From the NCBI GenBank assembly GCA_015521705.1, contig WANR01000040.1:1-64000 (forward strand): 64,000 nucleotides of DNA, in the 5' to 3' direction. The notes under the pieces were generated by a model. It was not told the DNA's origin, did not search any database, and saw only the letters and a program-made list of their open reading frames with translations. Numbering within the stretch: position 1 is the stretch's first letter; every line of letters starts with the position of its first letter. The position numbers were made by a program, and so were the translations under genes. Below are positions 4,744-7,556 of the stretch, in pieces. Source of the stretch: Desulfurococcales archaeon (GTDB lineage: Archaea > Thermoproteota > Thermoprotei_A > Sulfolobales > Acidilobaceae).

Positions 4744-5469
4744 TCAGTCTTCCTCGTGCTCTCCTTCTAGTAGTTCCGCCCCGTAACTGCCCCACTCGAT
4801 CTCTATTGCCGCGTATGCATCTACACCGTTGACCTTACTGTTTAGCCTTATGGCCTCTACCTCAGCGCTTGCCCCTAGTAGTTCTCGTGCCAGTGTCAAG
4901 GAGTCGACTATTCTTTCCCTGCCATTCTCTACTATCCAGTTGTTAACCAGCACTACTGCTACATCCCCTCCCCCGGTAGCTAGTAGTATGACGGCTACAC
5001 AGGCCTCGCACACGCCTTCAACGCTCGCCTCGTAAGCTTCCCTGACTATACCCCTCAGCGATACCTCATTCTCTTCCAGGTGTATTACAGAGAGGATGCT
5101 ATTGTAGAATGATACGCCGAGTTCTAATCCCTCTCTTGGGGCAGTAGTCTGAGGGGTCGTGGTGTTTGGCTGGCCCGTCTCTACTATACTGGTTCTGGTT
5201 GCCGTGGCGTTTCCGCCGGGCGGCTGCGTGTCCTGGGGGGCTTGTATCGGGGTTTCTGTAGTTGTTTCTATAGCCTCTTCTTCGGGTTCTTTGGGGGTTT
5301 TAGTGGGCTGGGTCTGTACTGGCTGCTCCCCGGCTGACGCGTTGAGGGGCCTCTCGATTCTTATCTCCGACTCTATCGAGGGTATCTCTGGATAGAGGGT
5401 TCTAGCGGCCAACATTAATACCAGGGCTAGCAGCACTAGGCCTGCTACTATCACGGCTTCTCTTTGCAT
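4744..5469 (-). CDS. Membrane-anchored exported protein with Thr/Pro-rich stalk
   Basis: 241 residues. Residues 5-24 are a single hydrophobic signal anchor. Residues about 45-110 are a low-complexity stalk rich in Thr, Pro, Glu and Gln, typical of an extracellular linker. The last ~130 residues form a compact mixed domain holding a C-E-A-C pair near 153-156, which could be a disulfide or metal site. I do not recognise the domain. The gene is divergent from the next one; a minus-strand A/T box (ATTAAACT, near 5513-5525) lies about 50 bases upstream of the ATG. Confidence 0.7.
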   Translation of the reverse strand: MQREAVIVAGLVLLALVLMLAARTLYPEIPSIESEIRIERPLNASAGEQPVQTQPTKTPKEPEEEAIETTTETPIQAPQDTQPPGGNATATRTSIVETGQPNTTTPQTTAPREGLELGVSFYNSILSVIHLEENEVSLRGIVREAYEASVEGVCEACVAVILLATGGGDVAVVLVNNWIVENGRERIVDSLTLARELLGASAEVEAIRLNSKVNGVDAYAAIEIEWGSYGAELLEGEHEED

Positions 5470-5617
5470 AGCGGATCACGAGCTCTCTGCTAGGCCTCTT
5501 GCCTGGGTGCACAGTTTAATAGAGTAAAGCCTATCTGCAATTATTAAATGATCCACCCAGGCAATAGCGCGGAGCCCTAGGCAGTTACTAGCGCGCCAGT
5601 TCACAGGGTGCCACGCA

Positions 5618-6193
5618 GTGAGCATCGGGGCTATACTGCTACTAGCAGCCGTGGCAGTGGGTGCCCTGGCTTTCCTAGTCATAGCGTCCTGGTTTGCTAG
5701 AATAGCCAAGCTGACAGCCATGCACAGGTTCTACCTGGTAGCCTCTGGTTTCGGGGTACTAGGCGTCGCCCAGGTCTTATCTGCATTGTCGTACTTATCG
5801 GGGAGCGAGCGAGACGCGTACACGTTCTATGTGGGATCCTCTAGTTTCTCCATGGCTGGCTACCTGATACTCTTAACGGCTTCTGGCAGGGAAAGCCGTG
5901 ATAGCGCCGTCTACGCAGTGAGCCCTGCCCTATTGTTGGCCTCGTCTGTGGACGTGGTTTCGGGCCTCTCCGCCGTGCTACTAGCCTATAACAGCAAGAG
6001 CATAGCTAGAGCCTGCTTCTCGGCCCTAGGAGTGTCCCACCTGCTCAAGGCCTTACCCCTGATCGGCGGCGGCCTCAACCTAGTATTCCTACCCCCCCTC
6101 CTCGTCCTCCTGGGAGAGGCCGTTAGAGCAGCCTCGGCCTCGGTCCTGGCCGCCTACTACATTAAGGGTGCTCTAGGTTATGAGGAGAAGTAA
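5618..6193 (+). CDS. Polytopic membrane protein, about six TM helices
   Basis: 191 residues, mostly hydrophobic, with about six predicted membrane spans and short polar loops. No catalytic motif is recognisable. Start is GTG at 5618, behind a GGGTG site. A TATA-like AATTATTAAAT near 5541-5551 gives a leader of about 50 nt. It overlaps the following winged-helix gene by 14 bases, so the pair is co-transcribed and may work together, for example as a sensor with its regulator; that link is inference. Confidence 0.7.
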   Translation: MSIGAILLLAAVAVGALAFLVIASWFARIAKLTAMHRFYLVASGFGVLGVAQVLSALSYLSGSERDAYTFYVGSSSFSMAGYLILLTASGRESRDSAVYAVSPALLLASSVDVVSGLSAVLLAYNSKSIARACFSALGVSHLLKALPLIGGGLNLVFLPPLLVLLGEAVRAASASVLAAYYIKGALGYEEK

Positions 6194-6452
6194 GGCCTCG
6201 ATCATCTACGAGGTGCTGAGCGTCATGGTTAGGAATGGGGGAGAGGCTAGCACGAGCCAAATATCTCTGGAGGCAAACCTCGCCTATGACAGGATGATGA
6301 GGCTGCTTGAAGAACTGGAGGAAAAGGGGCTCGTTGCTATACGCGAGAATAGAGGGCGAAAACTAGTGGTGATAACCGACAAGGGCAGGGAGCTATACAA
6401 GCACCTAGCCTACGTAAGGAGGATCCTTTCAGATTTCGGTATATCGATATAG
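6180..6452 (+). CDS. Winged-helix transcription regulator
   Basis: 90 residues spanning one winged helix-turn-helix domain of the small archaeal type (PF14947-like). Helices occupy about residues 5-20, 23-33 and 35-50; the wing (GRKLVVITDKG) is at 59-70, followed by a C-terminal helix suited to dimerisation. It begins inside the end of the upstream membrane-protein gene. Likely a local regulator, possibly of the exported-protein gene that follows. Confidence 0.8.
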   Translation: MRRSKASIIYEVLSVMVRNGGEASTSQISLEANLAYDRMMRLLEELEEKGLVAIRENRGRKLVVITDKGRELYKHLAYVRRILSDFGISI

Positions 6453-6493
6453 ATGTGCTAGTTGGAAAGGCCCCGCCGGCCACTAATGGTGGC

Positions 6494-6540
6494 TATTTAA
6501 GCTTTTCTCACCTCGGGTTAGTTTCCCTTTAATACATTAT
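6494..6540 (+). promoter_or_regulatory. Two tandem TATA-like boxes ahead of exported-protein gene
   Basis: TATTTAAG at 6494-6501 and TTTAATACATTAT at 6528-6540 are both good archaeal TATA boxes. The second predicts a start near 6560, about 11 nt before the TTG codon. Two boxes in 50 bases suggest strong or switchable expression. Confidence 0.45.
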
Positions 6541-6570
6541 AGGGGCACAGCTTTTCGCGAGGTCGGAGCC

Positions 6571-7059
6571 TTGAACAAGGAGGGAATAGCCGGGATCATA
6601 ATAGCCCTGCTAGCCGGGATAGGAGTAGGCATAGCAGCTAGCGGCGCCCTACAAGACATACTGGCAACCATAAGAGCGGAGATAGTGCAGGGAGAAGGCC
6701 AAGGAGGGAACGCCAGCCTCGCAGGAACCATATCTCTCGACGTAGGAAGCCTGGCTACGGGAACCACCTACTCCTTCGACGACGTGAGTGGAGAGACAAG
6801 ACTATACACAGGAAGCGGCGGTAACTTCACATTCACGCTATCCTACAACCAGACCGCCTTCCAATACGTCAGGGTTGAGATAGAGCTAAGCGACGGCTAT
6901 GACGTCGAGTTCTACCTGGACACCAACAACCCCACACAAACAATAGCACTACCAGGAGGCTATAACCTAGAAGTAGAAATAGAGGTCAAGGAGATAACAG
7001 TAAGCCCCGACGCCCCCCTCGGCCCACAGGAGATACAAGTCCTAATAACAGGGCCCTAA
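6571..7059 (+). CDS. Exported beta-rich surface protein (unknown family)
   Basis: 162 residues. Lys3-Glu4 is followed by a Gly/Ala/Ile hydrophobic segment (about 6-25), like the signal of exported or filament subunits. The rest alternates polar and hydrophobic residues, is rich in Thr, Gly, Tyr, Val and Asn, has no cysteine, and reads as a single beta-sandwich. Start is TTG at 6571 after a GAGGTCGG site. Two TATA boxes upstream and a T-rich tract downstream mark a single-gene transcript. It could be a surface-layer or filament subunit, but I see no family motif. Confidence 0.6.
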   Translation: MNKEGIAGIIIALLAGIGVGIAASGALQDILATIRAEIVQGEGQGGNASLAGTISLDVGSLATGTTYSFDDVSGETRLYTGSGGNFTFTLSYNQTAFQYVRVEIELSDGYDVEFYLDTNNPTQTIALPGGYNLEVEIEVKEITVSPDAPLGPQEIQVLITGP

Positions 7060-7099: not shown

Positions 7100-7277
7100 A
7101 TCCTTCCATTTACCAGAACCCATGGTTTTATACTACTCTTGAGACATTAGGTTGGGGCAAAACTAGGCTTCAACCAGTTTTGAAGTCGATCGAGCCCCAG
7201 GTTTTGTAGCAGATCAGCTTGAAAGCCAGTATTACTAGGATTGAGGGGTCTAGTAGAAAGGCAAGGGTAGTCCCCAA

Positions 7278-7556
7278 ATGAGTGGGTACGGCTTGTACGT
7301 GTATATTAAGAGAGTTAGAGCCTTTGGGAGACTCTACTATTACCTGGTCGTGGAGGAGTACATTGGTAACGGTAAGAGGCGGAGGATAGCACACATATCA
7401 GTAAAGAGGATCCTGGAGCGGTTCAAGGATGAAGTGGGTGATATGGCGCTTAGCGTGGTGCGGGGGGCGGGATTTGAACCCGCGCAGGCCTACGCCATCG
7501 GGTCCTCAGCCCGACCCCTTTGGCCAGGCTCGGGCACCCCCGCCTTTCTCCAGTGA
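7278..7556 (+). pseudogene. N-terminal relic, int(N), of an SSV-type integrase overlapping tRNA-Leu
   Basis: A 92-codon frame. Its first ~60 residues have the small N-terminal domain style of fusellovirus (SSV1) integrases: a Tyr-rich strand, RLYYYLVVEEY, a G-N-G-K-R turn and a terminal helix. It then runs into the tRNA-Leu gene on the other strand, where the antisense T-loop is read as GFEP, as in the SSV1 integrase where the attachment site lies inside int. No catalytic R..HxxR..Y domain follows. In SSV-type integration the gene is split and the int(N) part stays at the tRNA. No second attachment site or int(C) is visible to the left in this window, so this is probably a scar of a lost element. 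Confidence 0.65.
7459..7543 (-). tRNA. tRNA-Leu (anticodon GAG)
   Basis: An 85-nt class II tRNA. The acceptor stem is 7537-7543 with 7460-7466, and the discriminator is A (7459). The T stem and loop span 7467-7483 on the plus strand. The anticodon loop CTGAGGA sits on a TCGGG/CCCGA stem, reading GAG for CTC codons. A long variable arm is present. CCA is not encoded and there is no intron. A minus-strand TATA-like CCTATAAAC lies near 7581-7589. Confidence 0.95.

Follow-up and report, generated by a model that had tools for sequence, protein, structure and literature searches.

A probable orphan int(N) scar of an SSV-type integrase at tRNA-Leu(GAG), and its counterparts at other tRNA-Leu genes of a Desulfurococcales archaeon

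The att site of SSV1 lies in tRNA-Arg, a different tRNA from those considered here, and the SSV1 integrase reads PPGFEPG through its own att site. PF16795 is given as the domain of the suicidal integrases by Badel et al. (2021; PMC8371274), who also discuss chimeric integrases formed by homologous recombination, as well as rescue by superinfection. Among the known systems closest to the present locus is APOV1, which is integrated in A. pernix at tRNA-Leu(TAA) with a split integrase (loci L128 and L049). The locus considered here lies in a window of 64,000 nucleotides (positions 1 to 64,000 of contig WANR01000040.1, assembly GCA_015521705.1), in which an ORF entering a tRNA-Leu(GAG) gene had been read, from the DNA sequence, as the scar of an SSV-type integrated element (hereafter the original prediction).

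This ORF (7278-7556, forward strand; 92 aa) comprises an int(N) fragment followed by approximately 33 residues read antisense through the intact tRNA-Leu(GAG) gene (7456-7543, reverse strand; ARAGORN). Its frame gives VVRGAGFEPAQ within the tRNA, and both the coordinates and the antisense GFEP reading of the original prediction were confirmed. The int(N) fragment, encoding the N-terminal domain of an SSV-type integrase, occupies positions 7293-7454 of the forward strand, and its translation probably begins at the TTG at 7293, not at the ATG at 7278; in the aligned upstream DNA of all copies a conserved ATG/TTG start immediately precedes LYVY/MYIF. The conserved domain, LYVYIKRVRAFGRLYYYLVVEEYIGNGKRRRIAHISVKRILERF, is approximately 50 residues long. 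AlphaFold2 modelled it (28 homologues) as three strands and one helix with a mean pLDDT of 92, and Foldseek comparison of this model against the PDB returned no significant match (best E about 1).

Taken alone, the N domain matches curated libraries weakly, with no match in a Pfam search of the window ORF and a weak match to PHROG 5127 (0.12), and this counts against reading it as a scar. Two sister copies in the same genome match the N terminus of PHROG 5127 at 2e-3 and 3e-4, and the only match to the N domain among phage records is the APOV1 integrase, the N terminus of which is homologous to the window int(N) (43%, E 6e-7). Full-length relatives that share this N domain contain PF16795, the archaeal integrase catalytic domain (1e-26 to 1e-54), have the tRNA-Leu att inside the integrase gene, and match PHROG 5127 (1e-71 to 1e-100), the SSV1 integrase gene (2e-23, 29% identity) and the structures of its catalytic domain (3uxu, 3vcf and 4dks; 1e-20). 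Judged by these sequence matches, the domain is very probably the int(N) of an SSV-type suicidal integrase. The original assignment as an int(N) remnant is thus borne out by the APOV1 homology and the PF16795 domain of the full-length relatives, the match being to SSV-type integrase rather than to an unrelated family. A profile built from the four copies in the window's own genome detected homologues in 20/60 genomes, nearly all of the same family (Acidilobaceae, Aeropyrum, Desulfurococcales), and all but a few of the homologous fragments abut a tRNA-Leu gene in antisense. Antisense tRNA yields peptides of the DLNP/GFEP kind in many genomes, and these are often mis-annotated over tRNA genes, but it is exceedingly improbable that the window ORF is such a chance reading, which is refuted by homology to a known viral integrase in the N domain, a part of the ORF that precedes the tRNA.

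Chance is likewise excluded by the three further copies which the N-domain profile recovered in the window's genome (E 6e-25 to 9e-28), each of them at a tRNA-Leu gene. Fragments of int(N) are consequently found at 4/5 of its tRNA-Leu genes, namely GAG (window), CAG (C25), TAG (C30) and TAA (C54). The scar at tRNA-Leu(GAG) is therefore real as predicted but does not stand alone, with sister int(N) fragments at three of the other four tRNA-Leu genes. For these four int(N), neither an int(C) of their family nor an attL was found in the window, contig or genome (82% complete, 55 contigs), in agreement with the original observation that no catalytic domain follows and that no second tRNA 3' half was seen; none lies on the contig either. 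The locus is thus claimed to be an orphan scar and not an intact provirus, although against this the missing int(C) and attL may lie in the unassembled part of this incomplete genome. Beside the TAA and CAG scars there are host-type genes, read from their sequences as Spt5 and a superoxide dismutase-like gene, respectively, so that no element remains at either site. The fifth gene, tRNA-Leu(CAA) (L144:13225-13813, on contig C21 of this genome, G000), is cut by the contig end. Its locus contains two att copies approximately 530 bp apart, the second a partial copy of the tRNA 3' half, with a 65-aa ORF between them, and up to the contig end neither int(N) nor int(C) was found. With int(N) at four tRNA-Leu genes and two att copies at the CAA gene, all five were probably integration targets.

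The sole PF16795 match in this genome, on C51, was considered as the missing int(C) and rejected, as it belongs to another integrase, the N terminus of which contains an HTH. This gene (L174:377-1717) encodes a full-length tyrosine integrase of another family than the window int(N), with PF16795 and an HTH-like N terminus, and near it lies an ORF starting RRDLNPGPPAPKAG, as expected from an antisense tRNA reading.

Elements in which the integrase is split in the classical manner, with attL and int(C) at one end and int(N) with the intact tRNA at the other, were observed in seven relatives, the split proviruses in the family spanning about 5-14 kb (4.8-14.2 kb). Besides APOV1, split integrases occur in L129 (TAA; 14.2 kb), L130 (CAA; 11.8 kb), L131 (CAG; 8.1 kb) and L133 (TAA; 10.4 kb), while the int(C) of L145 (CAG; 4.8 kb) is apparently frameshifted and an eighth element, L135, is degraded. 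The 12.5-kb element at tRNA-Leu(GAG) of genome G007 (L137) is the counterpart of the window, with a tRNA identical at 88/88 positions and an attL identical at 61/61 positions to window 7456-7516. By analogy with this attL, the attB/attR core of the window probably extends over 7456-7516 (reverse strand), a stretch of 61 bp that covers the 3' part of the tRNA with its anticodon loop. An att within the integrase gene, split between attL and attR, is thus seen in the relatives, and the window has only the int(N)/attR half. Guttavirus genes lie beside int(N) in A. pernix and G008, and partly in G020, G002, G013, G011 and G026; none is present to the left of the window int(N). The right flank of the window locus has no match to that of any tRNA-Leu locus compared.

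Several further observations concern the anticodons at these loci. The attL copies of L145 (5062-5002) and L135 (18107-18166) have anticodons (GAG and TAG) which differ from the CAG tRNA at the other end, and are either fossils of an earlier anticodon or products of integration across isoacceptors. In G014 a second, inverted int(N) (L059:2906-3082) is nearly identical to the tRNA-Leu(CAG) copy approximately 3 kb away. At some loci the host flank is common to several genomes and the tRNA-Leu anticodon differs (L051/L058/L124, L059/L100, L099/L117, L023/L024 and L072/L089), the sets on common flanks being GAG/CAG/TAG or TAA/CAA; between G014 and G001, of one genus, CAG and TAG are apparently swapped between two loci, one with both flanks conserved. 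A link between anticodon change and int(N) was not adopted, as anticodons also differ at sites which lack int(N).

The reading frame across att is highly uniform. The tRNA 3' end is met on a codon boundary in 32/33 surveyed int(N), which would read WCGG[WR]xxNPRxPTP (the DLNPRRP frame), and in 9/9 int(C) checked, att and the int(C) match are separated by a number of bases divisible by three. Alone among the 33, the window int(N) is one base out (frame 1 versus frame 0) and takes the GFEP reading, the family frame being lost at the junction of int(N) and the tRNA 3' end (7445-7455), where the window linker was compared with that of L058 (FKDEVDDKALAL followed by WCGG). The GFEP segment had been predicted to arise exactly as in SSV1; SSV1 does read GFEP, but the likeness is misleading, given that 32 of the 33 relatives use the DLNP frame. 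The GFEP frame could be native to an unsampled integrase lineage which, as SSV1 itself does, uses this frame, but it is simpler, and probably correct, to assume a frameshift at the junction. With its frame lost there, the window copy is probably a dead pseudogene, a loss that bears on function and not on ancestry.

Orphan copies are also broken elsewhere, in L039 (two stops), L066 (stop) and L065 (truncated). By hand tally, broken int(N) make up 0/9 of those with int(C) in cis versus 4/~13 of those without (Fisher p 0.11), which is suggestive only of greater decay where int(C) is lacking. This pattern, with the window (frame), L039, L066 and L065 all decayed and none of the nine with int(C) nearby, weighs against a role for the orphan fragments in which the four int(N) have been kept since stand-alone Int(N), the multimerisation and arm-binding part, poisons incoming integrases or occupies their sites and so protects the host. 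Such a role would be in keeping with the multimerisation function of the SSV integrase, which is carried by Int(N), with int(N) transcription in some hosts as mentioned in PMC8371274, with the intact domains in family frame of 3/4 own copies, and with pN well below pS between copies (0.18-0.42 vs 0.61-0.86). A low pN/pS would, however, also follow from the time when these fragments belonged to active integrases, and host protection appears unlikely.

In the 200 bases upstream of the int(N) copies, taken together, the motif CTTCAA/TTGAAG is strongly enriched (55 observed vs 3.8 expected), with fixed spacing in one subgroup (-128, -114, -91, -20 and -7). In the window just the first pair is preserved, as the inverted repeat CTTCAACCAGTTTTGAAG (7168-7185), the sole such repeat in the 64 kb and a putative remnant of the arm-type sites. 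The repeats are candidate arm-type binding sites of the integrase N domain, the arm-binding reading of which draws on two features, its topology and these upstream repeats. The scar begins to the left of 7278, the start originally given, and includes the repeat at 7168-7185. The element was also predicted to have lain to the left, which is retained, and to be represented there by accessory genes at 4.7-7.1 kb, which is not. These genes form a block of four (4744-7059), of which two encode membrane-associated proteins, one a winged-helix regulator and one a protein of 162 aa whose N terminus is signal-like. All four recur in the same order in G020:C145 (related genus), and the synteny largely extends to G068:C148, with neither a tRNA nor an integrase seen at these blocks. 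On account of this synteny away from tRNA the block was rejected as the lost element, and the genes are probably not part of it.

The homology, the location, the absence of int(C) and the frame difference are direct observations, and a history of integration, element loss and frame loss accounts for the scar as a whole with high confidence. A circular virus or plasmid resembling APOV1, with a betaguttavirus-type integrase and attP inside the integrase gene, would have integrated by recombination at the 3' half of tRNA-Leu(GAG), and its integrase gene would have been divided such that int(N) was fused to the tRNA and int(C) placed at the far left end. A later deletion, a step which we infer together with the order of events, would have removed the element with int(C) and attL, while the arm sites, int(N) and the intact tRNA remained. 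The N/att junction would then have lost its reading frame to leave the present, presumably defunct copy.

Compatible with this history, and concerning the later fate of scars which are still in frame, is a proposal on which we are divided and lean slightly towards doubt: orphan in-frame int(N) would re-complete an integrase when an incoming int(C) is joined to them in frame, forming an intact chimera at the left border, so that integration is not suicidal. Where the host side already has an int(N), the integration there of another element must link the resident fragment to a new int(C), and as one frame across att is common to int(N) and int(C) (32/33 and 9/9), the product is a full-length chimera. 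Two loci fit this pattern. In L048 (G011:C10) a 9-kb element is bordered on the left by a full-length N1-att-C2 ORF and on the right, on the same contig, by a different N2 fused to tRNA-Leu(TAG). In L050 (G029:C155) a full-length N1-att(TAA)-C2 lies directly beside host genes, named from their sequences as kinase-like, lipoyl synthase (LipA-like) and lipoate ligase, and the contig with the matching tRNA-Leu(TAA), L096, terminates in an int(N) of the N2 type. A part of the flank to the left of L050 can be matched to L090, the TAA locus of G011, in which int(N) is absent. However, both loci come from draft MAGs, one at about 1.4x coverage, in which a free circle and a scar might have been joined by the assembler across the ~60-bp att repeat, and the left neighbour of L048 is itself mobile-element-like, which implies tandem integration. 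The window copy is out of frame and could not re-complete an integrase, whereas on their sequences the CAG, TAG and TAA scars of its genome could. The wider proposition, held with somewhat less confidence still, is that in-frame tRNA-Leu scars may together serve as permanently available docking sites, where N domains would be swapped by site-specific recombination alone and every new provirus would regain a full-length chimera at its left border. An att-based route to chimeras was not found in the portions of Badel et al. (PMC8371274) drawn on here. If general, in-frame scars would, on the evidence of these draft assemblies, stop integration being suicidal, and if true, this would provide a simple in-cis answer to the persistence and diversification of suicidal integrases.

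The tRNA-Leu genes of this genome are thus a repeatedly used docking place for viruses, and those of its archaeal family form a record of past virus integrations. While int(N) scars are known, their presence at 4/5 tRNA-Leu genes of one genome, with one frame across att common to nearly all int(N) and all int(C) found in the family, makes the survival paradox of suicidal integrases directly testable. The window scar resembles APOV1 in its N domain (43%), tRNA-Leu target, att inside the gene and placement of int(N) relative to the tRNA, but APOV1 uses tRNA-Leu(TAA), keeps int(C) and reads the DLNP frame, whereas the window has GAG, no int(C) and the GFEP frame. With the SSV1 integrase and the int(N) remnants of Sulfolobus (suicidal, type I) it shares a tRNA-split gene and a short beta-rich N domain before att, and with SSV1 also the GFEP reading, although the full-length relatives of the window int(N) are only 29% identical to SSV1. 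The pT26-2/pTN3 suicidal integrases of Thermococcales, as described in PMC8371274, are alike in their modular int(N)/att/int(C) arrangement, in-frame compensation and chimeras; there the chimeras are proposed to result from homologous recombination between elements, and here they would arise at att itself with int(N) already on the host side. The window int(N) scar is well supported, ordinary in kind and of a known type, and is unusual in the number of such scars and in what the family suggests about their re-use.
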